Positions 919 to 35,162 of a stretch of DNA of 64,000 nt are shown in pieces. Origin of the DNA: Anaerolineae bacterium (lineage in GTDB: Bacteria; Chloroflexota; Anaerolineae; Anaerolineales; Anaerolineaceae); assembly GCA_013178295.1 (NCBI GenBank), contig JABLWW010000011.1:62001-126000 (forward strand). Reading direction: 5' to 3'. Below the pieces are notes generated by a model. That model was not told where the DNA came from. It saw nothing but the letters and a program-made list of their open reading frames with translations, and ran no database searches. A program made the translations under genes and the position numbers. Position 1 is the first letter of the stretch. Each line of letters begins with the position of its first letter.

Positions 919-1929
919 GTGAAAAAGTTTATTCTCAGGCGTTTGCTGCTGGGCATCATTGTGTTGTTGGGGGTGGCATTGCTGACGTTTTTCCTGGCGC
1001 GTGTGGTTCCTTCGGACCCGGCGGCAAAGTGGGCTGGTCCCCGAGCCACGCCTGAGCAGATTGCGCGCGCCACTATTGAGCTTGGACTGGACAAACCATT
1101 ATATGTGCAGTTTGGAAAGTATTTGCTGGACTTGTTGCAGGGCAATCTTGGATATTCGCTGCGCACGCGCCGCCCGATCACGTTGGAACTGCAAGAAAGC
1201 TTGCCAGCGACTATTGAGTTGGTGCTCATTTCTACCATTGCGGCTGTGTTTGTCGGTATTCCGCTGGGTGTCATCTCTGCCAAGCGCAAGGATCAGCTGA
1301 TTGATCACTTGAGCCGCCTCTTCTCGATTGGGGTAGTCTCTTTGCCCACGTTTTGGATTGGATTGATCTTGCAGCTGGTGTTTTTCCGCGTTTTGGGGCT
1401 TTTCCCGATGGGCGGGCAGCTGAGTACCGAGATTAAGATCACGATGGATATTCCCAAAGTTACCGGGTTTATCATGTTTGATTCGCTGGTTACGGGCAAC
1501 TTCAGGATATTCCTGGATGCGCTCTGGCACATTGTCTTGCCCGGTATTACCATTGGCATGTACCCGGTGGGGTTGGTGGCAAGGATGACGCGCTCGGCGT
1601 TATTGGAGATTCTCAATGAAGATTACATTACTGCGGCGCGTTCATACGGGTTGAGTGAGCGGATTGTTCTTTGGTCGTATGCGTTGAAGAACTCCATCGG
1701 TCCGACCTCAACGGTGGTGGCGCTTTCGATTGGCTATACACTGGTCAACACTTTTTTGACCGAGTCGATTTTCACCTGGCCTGGCATTGGCAACTACATT
1801 GCCTCGGCAGTGATTGGGCTGGACTACCCGGCAATAATGGGCGTTACCATCTTCTCGGCTTTTTCCTATGTGGTGCTTAATCTGATTGCCGATATCATTA
1901 TTGCGCTCGATCCCAGGGTGAGGGTGTAA
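919..1929 (+). CDS. ABC transporter permease, DppB/OppB type
   Basis: Inner-membrane subunit of a dipeptide/oligopeptide-type importer. The 336-residue length and the opening (a hydrophobic segment from about residue 9, then PSDPAAKWAG and a GLDKPLYVQF stretch) are typical of DppB. About six membrane helices can be seen, and the EAA-like cytoplasmic loop that docks the ATPase (around the AARSYGLSERIVLWSYALKN segment) is present. The chosen start is GTG at 919, after a GGGAGACAG ribosome site. It is followed by the second permease with a 9-base gap. Substrate cannot be deduced from the permease. Confidence 0.93.
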   Translation: MKKFILRRLLLGIIVLLGVALLTFFLARVVPSDPAAKWAGPRATPEQIARATIELGLDKPLYVQFGKYLLDLLQGNLGYSLRTRRPITLELQESLPATIELVLISTIAAVFVGIPLGVISAKRKDQLIDHLSRLFSIGVVSLPTFWIGLILQLVFFRVLGLFPMGGQLSTEIKITMDIPKVTGFIMFDSLVTGNFRIFLDALWHIVLPGITIGMYPVGLVARMTRSALLEILNEDYITAARSYGLSERIVLWSYALKNSIGPTSTVVALSIGYTLVNTFLTESIFTWPGIGNYIASAVIGLDYPAIMGVTIFSAFSYVVLNLIADIIIALDPRVRV

Positions 1930-1938
1930 GGGAGGCGA

Positions 1939-2835
1939 GTGGTGAGGTGGTTGTCTGATTTTATCAAGACGTTGCAGCCCACCATACGGGAATGGCGTCT
2001 TTCGTTCTATCTGCTAAACCGCAACTGGCTGCAGCGGGTGGCGCTGATAGTAATTGCTCTGCTGGTTTTGATCGCCATTTTTGCGCCGCTGATTTCGCCC
2101 TATCCTTCACACGCCATCAGCGCTACCAACCCAAAGGATAAACTTCTTCCCCCTTCCTCTCGTTATCTGTTTGGAACCGATGAGCTGGGGCGTGACCTGT
2201 TTTCGCGGGTGATTTTTGGAACGCGCATCTCACTGCAAACGGCTTTGATTGCCGTTGGGCTGGCGCTATTGATTGGTGTGCCGCTGGGCGCCATTGCTGG
2301 TGGGCTGGGCGGAGCTGCGGATGAGATCATCATGCGCATTACCGATATCTTTCTTTCGTTTCCGCCATTGCTTCTGGCAATTGCCATCTCTGCTTTTCTG
2401 GGACCGAGTTTGCAAAATGCCATGCTGGCAATTGCTGTTTCCTGGTGGCCATGGTACACGCGTATCATCCGTGGACAGGCAGTTTCCATCCGTGAGCGCC
2501 AGTTTGTGCGCGCAGCGCGCGCCATTGGGACACCAACCTTTCGCATCATTTTTTCTCATATTTTGCCCAATACCATGGCGCCGGTGATTGTGCAGGCTTC
2601 AATGGATATTGGCGGAGTGATCCTGACGATTGCCGCATTGAGCTTTTTGGGGCTTGGTGCGCAGCCGCCTACCCCCGAGTGGGGTTTATTGATTTCAACC
2701 AGCCGGACGTACTTTCTCAATGCTTGGTGGTATAGCACCTTTCCCGGCATTGCCATTTTTGTTACTGTTCTGGTGTTCAATTTGATTGGTGATGGTGTGC
2801 GCGAGGTGCTTGACCCGCGTACCCGTAAGTTCTGA
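1939..2835 (+). CDS. ABC transporter permease, DppC/OppC type
   Basis: Second membrane subunit, 298 residues, pairing with the DppB-type protein. The N-terminal OppC-N segment holds one membrane helix (roughly residues 30-55) followed by the characteristic FGTDELGRDLFSRVIFGTRIS motif region at about 75-95. The core permease domain ends with a typical QPPTPEWG segment near residue 250 that sits before the last helix. The start is a double GTG at 1939/1942 with GGAGG just upstream. The stop overlaps the region used by the next gene's ribosome site, consistent with one operon. Confidence 0.93.
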   Translation: MVRWLSDFIKTLQPTIREWRLSFYLLNRNWLQRVALIVIALLVLIAIFAPLISPYPSHAISATNPKDKLLPPSSRYLFGTDELGRDLFSRVIFGTRISLQTALIAVGLALLIGVPLGAIAGGLGGAADEIIMRITDIFLSFPPLLLAIAISAFLGPSLQNAMLAIAVSWWPWYTRIIRGQAVSIRERQFVRAARAIGTPTFRIIFSHILPNTMAPVIVQASMDIGGVILTIAALSFLGLGAQPPTPEWGLLISTSRTYFLNAWWYSTFPGIAIFVTVLVFNLIGDGVREVLDPRTRKF

Positions 2836-2845
2836 GGAGATGGTT

Positions 2846-3808
2846 GTGCCGGGTTACTTTGAGATCCAAAATTTATCTGTGGGCTTCAGAACCTTTGAGG
2901 GCGAGCGCAGGGTGCTGGATATTGAACGGTTGGTTATCGGGCGCGGCGAAACCTACGGATTGGTGGGAGAGAGCGGTGCCGGAAAAACAGTGCTGGCTTT
3001 GACCATTTTGGGTTTGCTCCCCAAACCTGCCGCTGTCGTTCATAGCGGCAGCATTTGGTTTGATGGTCAAGACCTGTTGCAGAAAGGGGAGAAGGAACTG
3101 TATGCCCGCTATCGCGGCAAGCGTCTGGCGATGATTTTTCAAGATCCGATGTCCACCCTTAACCCGGTTTTCACTGTCGGACAGCAAATTGCGCGGGTAG
3201 TGGAGAAACAACAGGGTCTGCGCGGGGCAGCGGTGGCAAAGCGGTCGCTGGAGCTCTTGGAAATGGTCAAATTGCCGGATGCGCAAAGCACATTGAAAAA
3301 GTACCCGCATGAACTGAGCGGCGGACAGCGACAGCGTGTGATTATTGCCATTGCGCTTTCGTGCGGAGCGGAATTTCTCATCGCTGATGAGCCAACCCGT
3401 AATCTGGATGTTACCATTCAAGCTGGTATCCTCAAGTTGATTGGCGACCTGCAGAAAGATTTGGGAATCAGTGTGTTGTTTATTGCCAACAATGTGGGCC
3501 TGGTCAACGTTTTTTGTAAAAATGCTGGTATTCTCTATCACGGAAAGCTGGTGGAAGATGGCCCCAGTGAGTTGGTCATACGCGCGGCAAAACATCCCTA
3601 TACCCAAACGCTGATTTCCGCCATACCGCGCGACAAATCTGAGAAACTCAAGTTCGCCAGCACAGTCATTAAACCTGAAGCACAAAGGGGCTGTCCATAT
3701 TATTCGCGTTGCAACCTTGCTGAAAGCATCTGTTTTGATCGGATGCCTATGCTGGAGACTTCTTCTTCAGGACAGAAGGTTGCCTGTTTTATGGCGGAGA
3801 AGCAATAA
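2846..3808 (+). CDS. ABC transporter ATP-binding protein, DppD type, with altered H-loop
   Basis: First ATPase of the importer. With the GTG at 2846 (six bases after GAGGAG) the protein has 320 residues; ATG 2840 is in frame but sits on the ribosome site, and still longer frames run into the previous gene. Walker A GESGAGKT is at 41-48, the Q-loop near 99, the signature LSGGQRQR at 157-164, and Walker B with its glutamate (DEP) at 181-183. The switch region reads IANNVG at 213-218, where relatives have IT-His-D; the catalytic histidine is therefore an asparagine (N215). The D-loop is RNLD rather than TALD. A C-terminal Cys pattern of the OppD/F family (CPYYSRC) is present. Probably works with the intact DppF-type partner. 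Confidence 0.9.
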   Translation: MPGYFEIQNLSVGFRTFEGERRVLDIERLVIGRGETYGLVGESGAGKTVLALTILGLLPKPAAVVHSGSIWFDGQDLLQKGEKELYARYRGKRLAMIFQDPMSTLNPVFTVGQQIARVVEKQQGLRGAAVAKRSLELLEMVKLPDAQSTLKKYPHELSGGQRQRVIIAIALSCGAEFLIADEPTRNLDVTIQAGILKLIGDLQKDLGISVLFIANNVGLVNVFCKNAGILYHGKLVEDGPSELVIRAAKHPYTQTLISAIPRDKSEKLKFASTVIKPEAQRGCPYYSRCNLAESICFDRMPMLETSSSGQKVACFMAEKQ

Positions 3809-26158: not shown

Positions 26159-26899
26159 TTATTGCAGTTTTTTCTCCGGTTCAAAAGCGTCAAACTCGGC
26201 GAGAACTTCGGCACGCCGGTGTTCCACGTATTGCTCGAGCTTTTGCAACATCTCTCCTTCTGGCGCGGTCTGGATGCCCATCCGCCAGAAACCCTGCATG
26301 GGAAAATCTGCGAGGTAGCGGATCTGCCCAATCAAATGGTACTCCTGTGGTGTCGCTTGCATGTCTGGCAGGCTGAAATCCATTTGGACACAGTCTCCTT
26401 CAGCAAATGCCTCGGGGTCGAGTGTGGGAAATTTAAGCCCTGCTCCGCCAATTGAAATATCCTGTATTTCTCCCCGCCATTCCTTGCCCTCTCTGGAGAG
26501 GTTCAACACCTGTGTGAAGGTGCGGTCTCTGGGGACAGCCCGAACGCTGGCGCGCTTGCCAAAATTGGGTGAGGCGAATTCAAAGTCGTGTAACAGGACG
26601 CGGCGGCGGGCGATCTGGAGATCAAGGGCATGTGCCAGAATCGGCTGCGGCAGACTATCTGCCATGATGAATACGTTACGTAGATAATGGATGCAGATAA
26701 GCTGGTGGGGGTGGGTGACGAGGGTCGCAATTTTGGAGACTTTTTCGACAAACTGCGCCGGGTGTGAAAAAGGGATACCCTTGTATGTGTTTAACAGGGT
26801 AACCTCTGTCTTGCTTTCTGCCAGCTGGCGTATAGTTTCTAGAGCAGTTTCCACCGCTTGCCTCCCGCACTTTTTTAACCGAAGTGTTTCTTCATTCAA
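26159..26899 (-). CDS. PilZ-domain protein (probable c-di-GMP receptor)
   Basis: A 246-residue protein whose C-terminal half is a PilZ barrel: an RxxxR motif (R116, R120 in RASVR) and a DxSxxG motif (D147, S149, G152 in DISIGGAG), both needed for cyclic-di-GMP binding. The N-terminal 105 residues resemble the YcgR-type flanking domain but are not diagnostic. TTG 26899 is the start given by the open frame, with AGG a few bases upstream; it overlaps the sortase-fusion stop by eight bases, so the two are probably coupled. This suggests that surface display and c-di-GMP signalling are linked. Confidence 0.82.
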   Translation of the reverse strand: MNEETLRLKKCGRQAVETALETIRQLAESKTEVTLLNTYKGIPFSHPAQFVEKVSKIATLVTHPHQLICIHYLRNVFIMADSLPQPILAHALDLQIARRRVLLHDFEFASPNFGKRASVRAVPRDRTFTQVLNLSREGKEWRGEIQDISIGGAGLKFPTLDPEAFAEGDCVQMDFSLPDMQATPQEYHLIGQIRYLADFPMQGFWRMGIQTAPEGEMLQKLEQYVEHRRAEVLAEFDAFEPEKKLQ

Positions 26900-29024
26900 T
26901 CTTAACCTGAACAGCCCGTACCAGCAGCCGTGAGGAATAGCTCTGGGTAAGGATGCTATAGTCTTTACATGTGATCAGGGTTAGCCAGGGCTGATCCTCG
27001 TGGGTAATTGCCTGGATGGCGGAAGGAGAAACCACCTGCAACGTGCGCACTTCGTAGATGTACCGTTGCCCCCAGGCGCTGATGATCACCTGATCGCCCC
27101 ACGAGAGGGTACCCAGGCTGGCAAAGGGGCCAGGTTGCCCGTTGGAGAGATAGGCATGGGCAGTGATCGCGCTGTTGCCAGTCCAGCTTGGGAAGGCTGT
27201 GCCCTCCAGGTATCCGGCGGCGTTGCCCAGCCAGGTTAGATCCCAGCCGCCATTGCTTTGCGGCACGCCCACGATGGGGATATTGACATTCAGTCGGGGA
27301 ATTTGCAGAAACATCCCATCGCTGCTATGGTAAGCCTTGTCGGCTGGCTGTGCATCCAAATGTGTTATCACACCTGGCGCAAAACCGGTGACGGGAAGGA
27401 AGGCTGGCATACCCTGATACAGGTATGGGGTTGCACCCAATCTGGTGATTGAAAATTGCAGTCCAGCTGTGCCCGCCTTTGCATTGACAACGCGCGGCTG
27501 GCTGTCGCTGCTGCTTGCTACGATAGCCGTTCCCCCATTCTCATCAGTGACCGCGCTTGGATCGCTCAGGGTAACATACGCATAGTCTGGTGTATCGAAG
27601 AAAACAGTCCAGCCGGATAGGGGGTTGCCAAAGGCATTGAGCACGCGTACTTCCAGCCTGCTGCCGGTAACACCGTTGCGGGTGGTCTGCGATTTGGGGA
27701 CAGAGCCGGTGAGCAGGGGATAAGCGTTGTACTCGAATGCACCGATGTCGCAGACATTTACTGAAGCCAGACCACGTTGATCTCGATGAGGGCATGTGGC
27801 GGGGTTGCCGTTATCAATTGCTGGGCTTCCGTCCAGCAGAGCCATCGTATTCGTTGGCCCGCCGTTGTCCTCAAGCACTCCTAACAAAGGGTCTTTGCCA
27901 AATAGAGATCCTACACCACCGGCTTTGGAAAAGCCACAGGAGTCGCCGCTGTCCAGGTTGTTGCCGCCGTTTTCGATGATAGCCTTTCCGCCGCCCTCTT
28001 CCTTCTGGACGCAGTTTTCTCCCCAGTAACTATGCGCCAGGATTGTGTTTTTGAGAACGACCTTAGCGGTTGTCAGTGTGTTGCCCATCCCATCCACTTT
28101 GTTGGAAATGGCGATGCTGTTGTTGGAGAATGTGGCGTTGAGAATTTCGGTGGTGATGCGGTCGCCAAGAAAAGCCCAGTTGAAGAGCGCTCCGCCGTCA
28201 TTTGCCCGGTTGTTATAAAAGGTGCTGGCTGTGATGGAGAGGGGCGTGTTGTTGTAAATTGCGCCGCCATTTTGCCGGGCGTTGTTGTTTGCAAATGTGC
28301 TGCGGCTGATTTCTGCCCGCTCGCCGATCAGGTAAATGCCACCACCGTCTTTCCAGGCAACGTTGTCCACAAAGGTGCTGTTTTCAATGGTGAGGGTGTT
28401 GTAGAAAGTGGCGTAGAAGTACAGGCCGGCGCCGTTGCGGGCGCTGTTATCAGCGATGCGCACGTTGCGCAGGTATAGCGAGGCGTATGAACGGATACCA
28501 CCGCCATCCGTATCGCCCTCAGCGTAGCCATCTTGAATGGCGAGATTATTCAGTGAAAGGGTGAATGGCGAGTAAAAATCGGGGGTGTGGAACACGCGGT
28601 CTGCACCGCGTGTGGTGATGATGGTGTGATCCGGACCTTCACCGTTGACGGTCAGGTGACCGCCAGAACTGAGAATATCCAGATCGCCGCTTCGGTTGCT
28701 ATCATCTCCTGGGTCGCCGCGCAGTTCATATACGCCAGCGGGAAGGTTAATAACATCGCCACCGGGAGAAGCATTGGCGCGGTTGATCGCCCCGCGCAAT
28801 GAGCAATCATCCGGGGCGGAGGTGCAGGCGCTCAATCCACCATCGTCAACCAGGGTATCTACGTAAAAGCCTGTGAGCGGTAGCAACCCTTCTCTGGGCT
28901 TGTTTGGCTCGCCTGCGGCAATGACATTGCTGGACTGATCACATGGAGCCAGCCACAGCGTTGTTGCCAGCAGTATGGGCAAGAAGTATCTCAGGAGGGA
29001 ATGGTTGTGATTGGATTTTTGCAT
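26892..29024 (-). CDS. Beta-helix surface protein fused to a C-terminal sortase domain
   Basis: A 710-residue exported protein. After a signal sequence (about 1-37) comes LPLTG at 48-52, then a CSLRGAI-type right-handed beta-helix with repeated Asn/Gly-rich turns (about 70-400) ending in IGAFEYN, then an Ig-like domain (about 420-525), a second LPVTG at 543-547, and a sortase catalytic domain (about 570-710). The sortase triad is visible as H623 (ITAHAYL), C686 (TLITC) and R699. Sortases cleave LPxTG-type signals and join proteins to the envelope; here enzyme, likely signals and an adhesin-like body share one chain. Spontaneous or self-directed anchoring is an inference. Confidence 0.88.
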   Translation of the reverse strand: MQKSNHNHSLLRYFLPILLATTLWLAPCDQSSNVIAAGEPNKPREGLLPLTGFYVDTLVDDGGLSACTSAPDDCSLRGAINRANASPGGDVINLPAGVYELRGDPGDDSNRSGDLDILSSGGHLTVNGEGPDHTIITTRGADRVFHTPDFYSPFTLSLNNLAIQDGYAEGDTDGGGIRSYASLYLRNVRIADNSARNGAGLYFYATFYNTLTIENSTFVDNVAWKDGGGIYLIGERAEISRSTFANNNARQNGGAIYNNTPLSITASTFYNNRANDGGALFNWAFLGDRITTEILNATFSNNSIAISNKVDGMGNTLTTAKVVLKNTILAHSYWGENCVQKEEGGGKAIIENGGNNLDSGDSCGFSKAGGVGSLFGKDPLLGVLEDNGGPTNTMALLDGSPAIDNGNPATCPHRDQRGLASVNVCDIGAFEYNAYPLLTGSVPKSQTTRNGVTGSRLEVRVLNAFGNPLSGWTVFFDTPDYAYVTLSDPSAVTDENGGTAIVASSSDSQPRVVNAKAGTAGLQFSITRLGATPYLYQGMPAFLPVTGFAPGVITHLDAQPADKAYHSSDGMFLQIPRLNVNIPIVGVPQSNGGWDLTWLGNAAGYLEGTAFPSWTGNSAITAHAYLSNGQPGPFASLGTLSWGDQVIISAWGQRYIYEVRTLQVVSPSAIQAITHEDQPWLTLITCKDYSILTQSYSSRLLVRAVQVKIE

Positions 29025-29094: not shown

Positions 29095-30288
29095 TTATTG
29101 CTCGAAGGTTACTGTGGCAGTCATGTTCCAACGCAGGCGTTCGTCCTGCTGGTCAAGGGCGATGGTTACCTTGTAGGTGATGTCGCCCTGAACATTTTTG
29201 CCCAGCGCCTGAATTTTCTTGACGCTGCCGCTTATCTCTAAGTCCGGGATGGCATCGAAGGTTACTGTTACTGGTAAGCCGACTGCTACCTTGACGATGT
29301 TAAGCTCGGTAAGATCGCTGGTCTCCACTTCAAATTCAGAGAAATCTGCCAGAATAACGCGGGAGGTGCCCGGCGCAGCTTGTTCACCTACTTTGAGGTT
29401 ATTTTCAACAATCACGCCGTCGAAAGGCGCAATCAGTTTGATGTCCTCCAAAGCTGCTTTAGCGGCAGCCAGCGCATTTTCGGCATTCTTGAGGCGTGCC
29501 TCTGCCAGCGCAAGGGCGTCGGGATCGGGCCCATTCTTGATCTTCTCCAAATCACGTTTAGCCGCCTCGACCTCTTTCAGCGCCACATCATAGTTGCCCT
29601 GTGCTACGTTCTTCTCGAACTCATCTGGCAGGTCTTTCAGATAGTTGAGGTTTGCCAGGGCTTTATCGAGACGTTTGCGGGCGTCGGAGAGTACCGTCAG
29701 CGCGTAGGCGCGGTTGACATCGTCCTCCGCAAGGTTGCTGAATCCGTTGTATACCTCTTCTGCTTTTTTGACAGCGTCCTGAGCAAGAATGTACTCTGCC
29801 TCAGCGGTTTGGATAGACCAGTCAGAAGCGCGGCGGTAACTTTTCCACTCCAGCCGCTTACGGGCATCATCCAGGGCTTTTTCTGCCTGTGCCAGACGCA
29901 GTTCTGCCGCCGCCAGAGCGCTGGGATGGTTTTCGTAAAGGTCGTCGAGTGCCTGCTGAGCTGCGATGCGCTCGGCTTCCGCCTGGGCGACGGCAGCCTC
30001 CAGCCGCTCTTGGCCTTTGAGGCGGGCAATGATCTCACCCTGTTTAACTTCCTCGCCTTCGTGTGCCAGGATTTCAGCGACAATGCCAGGGGCAACGAAG
30101 CTGAGGGTGGCGTATTGTACTGGGACAACTGATCCTTCGGCGACTGGACCGCTGGCTGGCTGTACTGCTGCCAGGGTTGGTGTTGGCGTCGGCGCAGCTT
30201 GCCCTTGACAGCTGACCAGAGTAAAGACCAGGCTCAAGGATGCAACCCATAACATGGTCTTCTTTAAGATGCGTGTGTATGTATCCAT
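29095..30288 (-). CDS. HlyD/MacA-type efflux adaptor lipoprotein
   Basis: A 397-residue lipoprotein (lipobox LVSC, C27) followed by a Pro/Thr spacer. It shows the adaptor layout: first half of a biotinyl-lipoyl domain (VAEILAHEGEEVKQGEIIARL), a long Ala/Glu/Lys-rich coiled-coil hairpin (about 105-265), the second lipoyl half (IAPFDGVIVENNLKVGEQA) and a beta-barrel end. Such proteins link a MacB/FtsX-type permease to the envelope. It is the last gene of the export cluster on this strand. ATG 30288 is preferred over the longer frame to 30372. Confidence 0.9.
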   Translation of the reverse strand: MDTYTRILKKTMLWVASLSLVFTLVSCQGQAAPTPTPTLAAVQPASGPVAEGSVVPVQYATLSFVAPGIVAEILAHEGEEVKQGEIIARLKGQERLEAAVAQAEAERIAAQQALDDLYENHPSALAAAELRLAQAEKALDDARKRLEWKSYRRASDWSIQTAEAEYILAQDAVKKAEEVYNGFSNLAEDDVNRAYALTVLSDARKRLDKALANLNYLKDLPDEFEKNVAQGNYDVALKEVEAAKRDLEKIKNGPDPDALALAEARLKNAENALAAAKAALEDIKLIAPFDGVIVENNLKVGEQAAPGTSRVILADFSEFEVETSDLTELNIVKVAVGLPVTVTFDAIPDLEISGSVKKIQALGKNVQGDITYKVTIALDQQDERLRWNMTATVTFEQ

Positions 30289-30462
30289 GTGTTGTTCTTT
30301 CCTCGCTTCTAAAGAGCTTTTGAAAAGCTCGTACAGTCTGTATACGCAAAAAGTGCTATTTGGATTATACATTATCTTTTATTTTGCTAACCTTCTGTCG
30401 GGCTAATTTTACGCCCGATTTTGAGGGTGTGGTTAACAAGCGGTTAACTTCGCCAGCAGGAG

Positions 30463-31185
30463 TTACCAGATTCCTGGGAACAGGCGGTAGTGGGTCTTGC
30501 GGGTGTATTCGGCATAGCCAGCCAGTTCTTGGATCAGCGTGCGGTCTTCGAGAGAGGTGCGCACAACAGTAAAGATGATAGTAATAAGCGAGGGGATGAA
30601 TGCCCAAAGTGAACCTAACAGGATTGGAAGTGCTAGATTGCTAACAATACCCCCGGCGTAACCCGGGTGGCGCACCAGGCGATAGGGGCCACTGCTGATC
30701 ACCCGATGCCCGCGCTCATGTTGGATGCGCACATACGCTGAAAAGTAGGAATTCTCTGCCATTGCCCAGATCGAAAACATGAGCGACAGCGCCAGAATGA
30801 CCCCAGCCAACCACTGCCAGCCTACGGCGGGCGGCGTACTCCAGCCAAAACGTCTATCCAATCCGGCGACCAGCAAACCAATCGATGGGAATACAAACAC
30901 CATAAAAAACACCAGTGGCTTGTCCCAGGATTTGACATTCTCTTTGTCTGCTGCTGCGGCACGCTCAACGAGCAGTTCCGGGTGGATAAAAAGCACCACA
31001 ATTCGGCTGGTGATGACGCTCAGCGTGTAAAGGATAAAAAATACCCATGCCTGCAGCCAGTTCCAATCCCAGGAGACCAATAGAGGAATCAGGGGAATAA
31101 GGGCTGAAAAAAGGATCATTCCGATTGCTGACTTTGGGTTGATTTTGATCTTCTCATCTTTATTAATTGGGGATTGCGTGCTCAT
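30463..31185 (-). CDS. Isoprenylcysteine carboxyl methyltransferase (ICMT)-like membrane protein
   Basis: A 240-residue protein with about five membrane helices. The C-terminal half carries the ICMT/PEMT signature: GPYRLVRHPGYAGG, then SLEDRTLIQELAGYAEYTRKT, which binds S-adenosylmethionine and forms the active site. It is predicted to methylate a lipid-like or terminal carboxyl group at the membrane. ATG 31185 has GGAG eight bases upstream. It sits between the permease and adaptor of an export cluster, so the exported molecule may be methylated, though bacterial ICMT-like proteins vary widely in substrate. Confidence 0.85.
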   Translation of the reverse strand: MSTQSPINKDEKIKINPKSAIGMILFSALIPLIPLLVSWDWNWLQAWVFFILYTLSVITSRIVVLFIHPELLVERAAAADKENVKSWDKPLVFFMVFVFPSIGLLVAGLDRRFGWSTPPAVGWQWLAGVILALSLMFSIWAMAENSYFSAYVRIQHERGHRVISSGPYRLVRHPGYAGGIVSNLALPILLGSLWAFIPSLITIIFTVVRTSLEDRTLIQELAGYAEYTRKTHYRLFPGIW

Positions 31186-31216
31186 CAAAGGGTCTCCTTA
31201 AATTGACATAGGCAAA

Positions 31217-33616
31217 TTATTCATACGCCAGTACTTCGCGCACGGTCAGACGGGAAGCGCCGCGCGCCGGTAGATAGCTTGCCAGGGCGCTGAGAGTGAT
31301 GATCAATAGTAACCATACCCACAGACCTGCCATTGAGTAAGTGAAGGTCAATGGCTGTCCGATGAGGGCTGTTCCAGTGGCGCTGCTCAATGCTTTGCTG
31401 ATGGGGGCAGCCAGCAGGGCAGAAAATATCCAGCTTAACCCTCCGATGCTGATGCCTTCGAGGATAAAGACCCAGGCAACCCCTATGTTGGCAGCCCCAA
31501 TTGCGCGCAGGATGCCAATCTCACGGGTGCGTTCGAGGACATTAATGCTCATGGTTCCCATCAACCCCAGCCCGCCGACAAGCGCCAGCAGAACTGCCAT
31601 AAAGAGGAGCAAACTGGTGATGATGCCAAACATTGCCTCAGCTTCCGAACGTTCTTCCTGCATGGTTGTTGCGGCGTTGATACTGATGCCAACCTGCTCA
31701 AAATGTTTCTCAAGAGCTTTACCGACGGCGTCAATATACTGCGGATGTCGGTTAGACGTTTTAACCAGCACTGTCTCGGCATATCCCACGTTGTTGGTGA
31801 TTCTCAGGGCATAGTCGTTCGATGTATAAGCCATTGGCAATGAAAAGCCCATGCTGATCCCCACCACTTGAAAGTGGTGCTTTTTCCCATTCACCTTGAG
31901 CACAATCTTATCACCGATTTTTATGTCCGGTTCCTCTTTAATCAACGTGGACGAAACCACCACCGCGTTCTCGTCCTCTGGGAGCAGCCAGCGTCCCTGG
32001 AAGATGGTGGGGGAAGCAGCCAGACCTTTGCCGATATGTGGTGCAAAAAGATAAATTGGGACGCTTTCGCTGTCATCTGGGCGGATGCGGCGTGCCGGGA
32101 ACATAGACCAGCTGTCCACTTCTTCAACACCGGGAACGCGCCAAGCTTCTTGGGTCACTCTTTCCGTGCGGTAGGGGCGGGTGAGGTTAATCATGACGTC
32201 AAATCCCCACATTGCCATCAAATCGTCCACAGTGCGCATGAGTGAGGCGCGGATGGTGAACACACTGATAAAAATGGCGCCAGCCAGGGTAAGGGTAAAA
32301 AGGGTTAACAGCAAACGCCCTTTGGATCGAAATGTGTTGCGTATCGAGAGAAGTAAAGACCGTCTGACTGTGTAGCGCGCAAACCAGAGGTTTGAACCGC
32401 TGAGCAGGTGTTCAATAATATCTCTTTTGGGTTGCACGGTTGCGCCATAGCTGCTCATTGCTTCGGCAGCCGAGATGCGCAGGTTTGCCAAAAAGGGGTA
32501 AATGGAAGCCAGAAGAGGGACAAGAAGTCCGACGGCGATTTGTATCAGGTAGGAGGACACCGGGATATACATCTGGTTGAGGTCGAAGTTGAACAGAGAA
32601 GCCATCAGGGCGCTGAGGGTGCGTGCACCTGTAATGCTTAACGGGATGGCAAGCATGAGTGCCACAAGCCCATAGAACAATACCAGCGTCAGATACAGGC
32701 GCATGATTTGTACGGTGGTTGCACCCACAGCCTTCATCACGCCAATTTGCCGCTTTTGCTGCGTGAGTAGTGCGGAGATGGTATTGATAATCAGAAACGC
32801 ACTGAGAAACAGAGCCAGCATTCCCAAAACGCCCATCAGCATCAAGATTGCCTGCAAGACGTCATCCAGGGGTAATTGACCGGGTTCGGCGGTCATACTG
32901 ATGGGGATAACATAACCGGCGCGCTCGGCTTTGTCTTTAATTTCGTTAATCAACTCCTGTACAGCCTTTTTGTCTTCTTTTTTGACTGCCACTACCTGGA
33001 GTTCGTTATAGCCATATTCTTCTCCAAACCACTTGAGCGTTTCTGTACTAATATATCCGTAGGGGGTGCCATCAATTTGTGCCGGGAGCTGTGCCATATC
33101 GTGGGTGGTTCCGGCAATGCGCATCGTGCGTAGCTTTTCGTTGGGCAATTTGATGGTAATGGTGTCGCCAATGCGGGCGTGGATGACATTTAGTGCAACC
33201 CGTTCGATTAGAATCTCTTTGTTGGGAGGGGGGAAAGCACCCTCCTGTGGAAAAATTTTGTTTACGCGCATGTTCTGGTAATCATCCACAGCGTAAATGG
33301 TGATGTTTGTCCAGTCACCGTCATTCACCTTGATGCGGGCACTGATCATTCGCCGCGCGTCCACCTCTTCCACACCCGGCATCGAGCGCACGGATTGGAT
33401 GAAATCGCTGTCGAAAGGCTGAACAGTGCGAATGACTCCGCTGGAAGGGTTGATCTGTGCAAATGCCTTCGCCATTTCGACCGAAAGAATGTAGCGGGCG
33501 CTGGCGATGGTGCCAACGGCGAAAAGCCCAACCATGATGGAAAGAATGATCAAGACAGTACGTGTCTTGTTGCTCAGCAGGTCGTTGATCACTTTGTGCC
33601 ACTGGGCTGCCATCAT
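31217..33616 (-). CDS. ABC transporter permease, FtsX/MacB family, duplicated form
   Basis: A 799-residue permease with the duplicated FtsX layout: an N-terminal membrane helix, an extracytoplasmic MacB-PCD domain (about 45-250), three helices around 265-375, then a second helix and a second extracytoplasmic domain (about 435-660) with three more helices up to the C-terminus. The ending, PARGASRLTVREVLAYE, is the conserved tail of this family. These proteins act by mechanotransmission to move lipids, toxins or lipoproteins. The start overlaps the ATPase stop (ATGATG), so it pairs with the adjacent ATPases. Confidence 0.9.
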   Translation of the reverse strand: MMAAQWHKVINDLLSNKTRTVLIILSIMVGLFAVGTIASARYILSVEMAKAFAQINPSSGVIRTVQPFDSDFIQSVRSMPGVEEVDARRMISARIKVNDGDWTNITIYAVDDYQNMRVNKIFPQEGAFPPPNKEILIERVALNVIHARIGDTITIKLPNEKLRTMRIAGTTHDMAQLPAQIDGTPYGYISTETLKWFGEEYGYNELQVVAVKKEDKKAVQELINEIKDKAERAGYVIPISMTAEPGQLPLDDVLQAILMLMGVLGMLALFLSAFLIINTISALLTQQKRQIGVMKAVGATTVQIMRLYLTLVLFYGLVALMLAIPLSITGARTLSALMASLFNFDLNQMYIPVSSYLIQIAVGLLVPLLASIYPFLANLRISAAEAMSSYGATVQPKRDIIEHLLSGSNLWFARYTVRRSLLLSIRNTFRSKGRLLLTLFTLTLAGAIFISVFTIRASLMRTVDDLMAMWGFDVMINLTRPYRTERVTQEAWRVPGVEEVDSWSMFPARRIRPDDSESVPIYLFAPHIGKGLAASPTIFQGRWLLPEDENAVVVSSTLIKEEPDIKIGDKIVLKVNGKKHHFQVVGISMGFSLPMAYTSNDYALRITNNVGYAETVLVKTSNRHPQYIDAVGKALEKHFEQVGISINAATTMQEERSEAEAMFGIITSLLLFMAVLLALVGGLGLMGTMSINVLERTREIGILRAIGAANIGVAWVFILEGISIGGLSWIFSALLAAPISKALSSATGTALIGQPLTFTYSMAGLWVWLLLIITLSALASYLPARGASRLTVREVLAYE

Positions 33617-34329
33617 TTGCCATCCTCCGCTTCCCTGATCATCTCGCCGTCTGCCAGGACGATGTGCCGTGAGGCTATTCTGGCAGTGTCCTCATCGTGT
33701 GTGACCACGATCACCGTTTTGCCGTTGGCTGCAAGGTGTTCAAAGACTTGCAGCACGCTGTCAGCGGTGACAGAGTCGAGGCTGCCGGTGGGCTCATCAG
33801 CCGCCAGTATCGGGGGATCGTTTGCCATGGCGCGCGCAATTGCCACACGCTGCTGCTGACCGCCGGAGATGGCTGAGGGTGGTTTATGGGCGTGTTCGGC
33901 AATTCCCATTTGCTCCAGGAGAAACATTGCCCGCTCGCGGCGTTCCTTGAGCGTACCCTGACGCGCAAAATCCATTGGAAGCATCACGTTTTGTACAAGC
34001 GTCAGAGTGGGCAGCAACTCAAAGCTCTGGAATACGACCCCGATATGTCTTCCTCTCCAGCGGGCGGCTTGTTCGGGGTTTAACTGATGCACTGGCACAT
34101 CTTCGACCCATATCTCACCGGATGTGAGCCGATCGAGACCGGTGATCATGTTGATCAGCGTGGTCTTTCCGGCGCCGGATTTTCCAGTGATAACGATGAA
34201 TTCGCCTGAATGGAGTTCCAGGTTAATCCCTTTGAGCGCGGTAACTTCTCCAGCGATGCCATTGTATTTTTTGACCACCTGCCGCAGGCGAATGAGAGGA
34301 CTCTGTAGCTGGAGATGATTTGTCTTCAT
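33613..34329 (-). CDS. ABC transporter ATP-binding protein, LolD/MacB type (second ATPase)
   Basis: A 238-residue ATPase with [34 protein letters not shown] and VTHDEDTA; the QLNPEQAARWRGRHIGVVFQ segment is typical of the LolD/MacB class. It overlaps the permease start by four bases and the first ATPase by four bases. Having two ATPase genes with one duplicated permease suggests a heterodimeric motor. Confidence 0.9.
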   Translation of the reverse strand: MKTNHLQLQSPLIRLRQVVKKYNGIAGEVTALKGINLELHSGEFIVITGKSGAGKTTLINMITGLDRLTSGEIWVEDVPVHQLNPEQAARWRGRHIGVVFQSFELLPTLTLVQNVMLPMDFARQGTLKERRERAMFLLEQMGIAEHAHKPPSAISGGQQQRVAIARAMANDPPILAADEPTGSLDSVTADSVLQVFEHLAANGKTVIVVTHDEDTARIASRHIVLADGEMIREAEDGK

Positions 34330-35162
34330 CGGACTGCCTCGCTGGCAGAGGGCGGTATGGCAACGTTAGGAACGTGGGTTGCGTTGCCGATATTTTTGCA
34401 AAGGTGTTGCGGTGTGTGATTTGTGTATTCCCCCACGATCCGTCCATCGGCGAGCGCAACCGTACGAAAAGCCCGCCGTGCAAGGTCGTTATCGTGCGTT
34501 ACCATCACGATGGTCATTCCCTCTTTGGCAAGCGCTTCAAAAAGCGAGAAGACCTGATTGGCGGTTTTCCAATCTAAGTTGCCTGTGGGCTCGTCGGCGA
34601 CAAGAAGAAGGGGAGAATTTGCCAGAGCGCGGGCGATGGCAACACGTTGTTGCTGCCCCCCTGAAAGAGCTTTGGGTAGGTGATGGGCGTACTCTGCCAT
34701 TCCCATTTGTTGGAGGAGTTGCAGGGCGCGTTCGGGTCGCTCGCGCATGGGGTAGTGCTGACCATAATCCATTGCCAGCAGCAGGTTTTCTATGGCAGTC
34801 AATGTGGGCAGAAGTTGAAAAAACTGAAAAATAATTCCGATGGAGCGGCCGCGCCAGATGGCAATTTGCTCCTCGCTCAGCGTGTGCAGCGCTGTTCCAG
34901 CGACCCAAACCTCACCTGAAGTCGGACGATCAATACCGGTAATCATGTTGATCAATGTGGATTTTCCGCTGCCAGATTTGCCGATGATAGAAACAAACTC
35001 GCCGGGATGGATGCACAGATCAATGCCTTTCAGAGCGGTGAACCTTCCAGCTGCACTTTCGTACGTTTTGAACACCTGATGCAGTTGCACAACATACCCA
35101 TTGATATGATCGTTGTTTTGTTTGTTATGATTACCGTTGCGCTTGGCGTTGACCCTGAACAT
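34326..35162 (-). CDS. ABC transporter ATP-binding protein, LolD/MacB type (first ATPase)
   Basis: A 278-residue ATPase with intact [34 protein letters not shown] and VTHDNDLA. It closely resembles its downstream partner and carries a basic, Asn-rich 25-residue N-terminal leader that the partner lacks; the C-terminus also has about 40 extra residues. ATG 35162 follows AGG by eight bases and lies four bases after the stop of the small conserved gene, so that small gene is probably part of the operon. Confidence 0.9.

Follow-up and report, generated by a model that had tools for sequence, protein, structure and literature searches.

To our knowledge, known sortase systems place the enzyme and its substrate on separate chains, with a tail that keeps the substrate in the membrane. 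Engineered sortase fusions that carry an LPETG site cut themselves (PMC11561820), and in STEPL (Warden-Rothman 2013, as described in PMC11561820) a protein of interest is fused with sortase, released, and ligated to Gly nucleophiles. His-srtA/BISOP is an engineered self-cleaving fusion with the sortase placed first (PMC2901362). The lid of GBS SrtC superposes on the LPAT peptide that SrtA binds as substrate, and its proline is similarly placed; this lid has been termed a pseudo-substrate and was proposed to regulate the enzyme (PMC3493515). The open-licence literature on natural sortase fusions and on sortases of Chloroflexi/Anaerolineae yielded engineered fusions alone, and no natural case was described there.

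We analysed a stretch of 64,000 nucleotides (the window) from a 3.95 Mb genome of an Anaerolineae bacterium. It encodes a 710-aa protein in which a sortase domain follows an LPxTG motif in the same chain, and a preliminary description had drawn attention to this protein and to a second LPxTG motif near its N-terminus.

Results

Layout of the protein and its neighbours

The features of the locus are as follows; all lie on the minus strand.

26892..29024, minus: 710-aa secreted protein with a C-terminal LPxTGF-sortase module (ORF list, Pfam, NCBIfam)
28914..29024, minus: signal peptide, residues about 1-37 (from sequence)
28866..28883, minus: N-terminal LPLTGF, residues 48-53 (ORF and DNA pattern)
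27894..28868, minus: CSLREA start and parallel beta-helix body, about residues 53-377 (TIGR04214, Chlam_PMP, homologues)
27726..27893, minus: choice-of-anchor Q domain, residues 378-433 (NF041518, E 5.3e-24)
27465..27704, minus: Big_1 Ig-like domain, residues 441-520 (PF02369, E 1.7e-9)
27381..27398, minus: conserved, putative cis sorting motif LPVTGF, residues 543-548, inside LPVTGFAPG (ORF, DNA pattern, family conservation)
within 27381..27398, minus: predicted cut site between T546 and G547
27309..27380, minus: linker, residues 549-572 (APGVITHLDAQPADKAY...), of near-constant length across the family
26907..27308, minus: sortase domain, residues 573-706 (PF04203, E 3.5e-21)
27156-27158, minus: catalytic H623
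26967-26969, minus: catalytic C686
26928-26930, minus: catalytic R699
26159..26899, minus: PilZ-domain protein (c-di-GMP type), with an 8-nt overlap between its start and the sortase stop

The preliminary description, a sortase with its own LPxTG motifs and a beta-helix body, agreed with the ORF, both motifs and the sortase domain. LPLTG lies after the signal sequence and LPVTG before the sortase domain, as had been claimed, and each is followed by Phe, which the DNA pattern also recovered. C686 is the catalytic Cys, as that description had assigned it. The CSLREA match (NCBIfam TIGR04214) at residues 53-84 was below cut-off, as were the weak Chlam_PMP beta-helix repeats (Pfam). Inspection of the sequence showed no membrane segment besides the signal peptide, including the region after the sortase, and signal-like segments were found in most relatives as well.

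The sortase domain scored 75.7 bits with PF04203 (cut-off 26.6) and 50.9 bits with TIGR01076 (cut-off 39.35), and it has the catalytic set of the superfamily: His, Cys (in TLxTC) and Arg. It reached 61.2 bits with the class C model NF033745, under that model's cut-off of 160, and was likewise under the cut-off for each of classes D, E, F and GN. The nearest solved sortases, by sequence and fold, are the class C pilus enzymes. A C-terminal TM-like tail was found in none of 76 modules, most of which end 24-36 residues after the Cys.

The 8-nt overlap suggests translational coupling, and the PilZ and sortase genes are probably co-translated. The PilZ gene was rejected as a conserved partner, since none of the other fetched loci gave a match to it. 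Positions 29095-35162 (minus), which lie upstream of the sortase gene and are read in the same direction, encode an HlyD-like fusion protein, a methyltransferase-like membrane protein, a MacB/FtsX permease and two ABC ATPases.

Conservation of the two LPxTG motifs

A search for the sortase domain in 301 genomes of the phylum Chloroflexota set a group of close relatives (E below 1e-36) clearly apart; almost all were from the same order, and most lay in ORFs of 0.5-3.8 kaa. Forty sortase modules were chosen by sortase homology alone, with a query that ran from F548 on, so that LPVTG was excluded from the selection. The motif columns of these modules were L/I 36/39, P 40/40, T 38/39, G 38/39 and F 39/39, followed by A (32/40) and P (34/39); the x position varied freely (R 9, A 8, V 7, S 4, others). 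In the same 40 modules the catalytic columns were H 40/40, C 40/40 and R 39/40. That is, the P, T, G and F of the motif are conserved to the same degree as the catalytic His and Cys. Ahead of the motif, conservation drops to background, with linkers that are Gly-rich or acidic, and the distance from [LI]PxTGF(AP) to the first sortase strand is 21-25 residues in nearly all modules. Every synonymous codon is in use for the motif P, T, G and F, and conservation therefore acts on the protein.

The reverse test gave a similar picture. Of 151 genomes searched in the order, 65 contained the DNA pattern [LF]PxTGF[AT]P, which was commoner than the reversed control. Among 40 fetched pattern loci, 36, from many families, had the motif in frame and then a sortase that closes the protein some 170 residues further on, giving 39 motif copies altogether. 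The remaining four were unrelated frames with no sortase. Later homology matches brought the variants LPQTGFPAG, LPLTGFPPK, LPGTGYAPG and PKTGFPRG, each with a sortase after it. At a chance density of 5.6e-5 per residue, four LPxTG are expected in the 71,925 residues of the full-length relatives; 32 were observed, only 5 of them outside the C-terminal module.

The N-terminal motif fared differently. Sixteen homologues cover that stretch, and none has LPxTG ahead of the CSLR box (0/16); they read a signal peptide and then roughly ATFTVTxTADxND. An N-terminal LPxTG is also absent from nearly all other module-bearing proteins, and 101 genomes of the family yielded no whole-length orthologue of the 710-aa protein. 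By composition LPxTG is expected about 0.04 times per 710 residues, so the presence of LPLTGF is unusual. We rejected LPLTGF 48-53 as a second functional site, since it is conserved in 0/16 homologues, and consider it probably incidental and private to this protein.

The two motifs are of unequal standing, LPVTGF before the sortase being family-wide and near-invariant across the alignments. The processing of its own chain that had been proposed for both motifs is well supported for LPVTGF by this conservation before the sortase, and lacks support for LPLTGF, which the homologues lack. Non-conservation, which the preliminary description had named as refuting its proposal, was seen for LPLTGF but not for LPVTGF. 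That both motifs are chance or structural sequence with no sorting role is scarcely credible: such a reading holds well for LPLTGF, absent in 16/16 homologues, but for the C-terminal motif it is excluded in practice by the column conservation, the reverse motif search and the synonymous codons.

Family and bodies

The window's genome has four sortases. One stands alone (G000:C12) and has an N-terminal membrane helix; three are C-terminal on larger proteins, namely the 710-aa LPVTGF protein and two others, of 2630 aa (LPRTGFAPG) and 702 aa (APSTGF). Relatives put this genome in Chloroflexota, probably in Anaerolineales; the best named one is Ornatilinea apprima, which carries a locus of the family (L005). 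On the tree all 81 fused modules fell in one clade (support 0.79) together with a single stand-alone member, from genome G276. By this tree the LPxTGF-sortase module forms one clade in Anaerolineales (Chloroflexota), placed at the end of surface proteins of about 0.7-3.8 kaa that bear signal peptides. The G276 sortase (L027/L070, G276:C75) is without fusion or signal peptide, and its motif is the degenerate LPASAARSR, which reads as a natural loss of the motif in an unfused clade member. Five other stand-alone sortases of the phylum, whose sequences were inspected in full, also lack the motif. Relatives were absent from viral contigs, and one scan of genome contigs, in a sample that barely covers other phyla, found three loci, all Chloroflexota.

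The bodies ahead of the module vary, and include DUF11 arrays, beta-helices, Big domains and one protein kinase. A role for the beta-helix in the mechanism was rejected on account of this variation. The kinase (locus L049, G176:C1:1008500-1013000, ORF 1049-3439, plus strand) has a cytoplasmic Ser/Thr kinase domain, then a membrane helix, and beyond it an exterior part that ends in LPRTGFAPG-sortase.

This variety bears on whether the modules cross-link copies, with the Thr of one chain joined either to a lysine of a second chain or to that chain's freed Gly N-terminus so as to form fibres or a coat instead of attaching to the wall. The nearest class is the pilus-polymerising class C, each genome has several module copies, and one body (L055) gave a weak match to the pilin backbone PF16569. 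Bodies as unlike as a beta-helix, a kinase and DUF11 arrays are too diverse for one polymer, however, and we hold cross-linking to be quite improbable.

Exchange with classical sorting signals

In a classical signal, the LPxTG pentapeptide of a secreted protein is found close to its C-terminus, and LPVTGF 543-548 lies in such a place, after the surface domains. The hydrophobic helix and positive tail that belong behind it are missing in the 710-aa protein; the sortase domain stands there instead, with no TM. This accords with the early view that such a one-chain arrangement falls outside classical sortase systems.

Homologous bodies were found with either ending. Among CSLREA bodies, L113 ends in LPATGF-sortase and L112 in LPATGAPIG-TM-RRRR; among the DUF11 giants, L157, L158 and L167 end in the module and L165 in IPTTG-TM-RFRKEG. 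Both endings therefore occupy the position of the sorting signal, and from these comparisons the module takes the place of the classical LPxTG-TM-Arg tail where the bodies are homologous. The sole LPXTG-anchor match in the window's genome is ALPNTGFMDEFG-TM-RRLRTQR. This one recognised classical signal (ALPNTGFMDE-TM-RRLRTQR) also has LPxTGF, which makes LPxTGF plausible as a motif for sorting in these bacteria.

The stand-alone membrane sortase could act in trans, cutting LPxTGF, anchoring the body and freeing the fused sortase, whose activity would serve other substrates or be secondary. Since the same genome encodes both this sortase, with its TM anchor, and a classical protein with LPNTGF, the enzyme probably recognises LPxTGF. 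Yet the motif is tied to fused sortases with intact catalytic residues and is lost in the sole unfused clade member, and no TM or positive tail would hold the substrate for a membrane sortase. We regard cutting in trans as highly improbable, a shade more so than cross-linking.

A conserved protein of about 200 aa (L086 at G000:C12:231796, L076, L077, L079, L080) has the classical end LPxTG[F/L]..GLPG-TM-RRLR, and in L086 an N-terminal TM as well; it is probably the substrate of the stand-alone enzyme. Eight loci (L088, L093, L097, L098, L100, L115, L162, L163) encode secreted proteins with a short (V/I/L)(Y/F/W)LP(L/I/N/S)(V/L/I)xK/R tail, which in many Anaerolineales proteins looks like a separate C-terminal signal on like bodies.

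The motif and the class C lid

A profile alignment that is gap-free before the first strand pairs F548-A549-P550-G551 with the class C lid of 24rr (L64-D65-P66-F67). The DP-aromatic lid itself is missing ahead of the barrel, where F-A-P-G aligns with the L-D-P-F of 24rr. The motif segment thus aligns with a lid that overlays LPAT, which would tether LPxTG where the chain can reach the active site. An AlphaFold model of motif plus sortase, built from only four sequences, had a pLDDT of 57.9 (about 30 at the motif) and was too poor to judge docking.

The same alignment is consistent with an inhibitory lid or pseudo-substrate like the class C DPF/W/Y, which would stay uncut in the active site until a partner displaces it, the enzyme acting in trans while tethered to its body. 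LPxTGF occupies the chain segment that forms the lid in class C, the class closest to this sortase in both sequence and fold, and published lids overlay LPAT and were proposed as regulators (PMC3493515); the conserved FAPG and following residues would equally fit a lid that is never cut. But class C lids retain just DP-aromatic, whereas here there is a full recognition motif with a free x, as in real substrates. The genome has one protein of the LPXTG-anchor type against three fused sortases, and a lid leaves the alternation with LPxTG-TM tails unexplained. We consider such a lid unlikely, although it is the strongest competitor of self-sorting.

Discussion

Taken together, the strict LPxTG, the intact catalytic residues, the motif loss in the unfused member, the exchange with classical signals and the engineered fusions make a real substrate in cis the best reading. 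With the sortase directly behind its own cutting signal, each protein probably processes or anchors itself. We propose, with a probability of roughly 0.6, that the C-terminal about 168 residues (LPxTGFAPG, fixed linker and sortase barrel) are a self-contained self-sorting cassette. It is about equally probable that they represent a widespread, apparently undescribed one-chain system of Anaerolineales. In such a system the C-terminal sortase would cut its own conserved LPxTG-F and link the body covalently, in place of membrane-tail signals and of a sortase on another chain. The preliminary description, as far as sequence can tell, appears right in outline in seeing a natural, conserved sortase and sorting signal in one chain for LPVTGF, and unsupported for LPLTGF.

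In Sec export the C-terminus leaves the cell last. The enzyme would therefore appear at the membrane with the body already outside, and a retention tail could be dispensable. In the proposed mechanism the body would be exported first via Sec and the sortase would emerge last, at the membrane face, where it would bind the LPxTG of its own linker or of a neighbouring copy. C686 would attack the T546-G547 bond and hold the body as a thioester. This thioester would end by hydrolysis or by transfer to an amine, either that of a cell-wall precursor or a lysine or the N-terminus of another surface protein, and a free sortase beginning G-F-A-P-G would be shed. The cassette would thus stand in for LPxTG, transmembrane helix and positive tail, and for a separate sortase. 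Within this model we infer the T-G cleavage, the action in cis rather than between copies, and the acceptor. MraY is present in the genome, so a lipid-linked cell-wall precursor is available and may, at a guess, be the acceptor. Wall anchoring would make little sense for the L049 kinase fusion, which counts against the cassette; wall anchoring cannot be what the module serves throughout the family.

If the cassette is real, a natural fusion of enzyme and substrate would be a new way of building the bacterial surface, and evolution would have arrived at the same design as the STEPL purification tool, which engineers invented separately. It could also give a ready-made single-chain ligase with a short linker. 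The family also prompts one to ask by what means a little-studied phylum anchors giant surface proteins that have no retention tails.

Four known systems invite comparison. STEPL and BISOP are alike in joining protein, LPxTG site and sortase in one chain, but they are man-made and Ca2+-dependent, whereas the Anaerolineales module is natural, family-wide and class C-like, with a fixed short linker. The class C pilus sortases (24rr, 2xwg, GBS SrtC) are the closest class, with a cis motif in or beside the lid segment; the module differs in scoring 61 against 160 bits, in having no TM by the domain, in carrying LPxTGFAPG for DP-aromatic, and in being fused to cargo. The classical LPXTG-TM-positive tail (TIGR01167) shares the pentapeptide with a free x and the C-terminal place on homologous bodies, but has a TM helix and positive tail where the module has the enzyme itself. 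Lastly, the 710-aa body contains the domain of the choice-of-anchor Q proteins (NF041518), which are named for their varied anchors, and differs from them in that its alternative anchor would be a catalytic domain.
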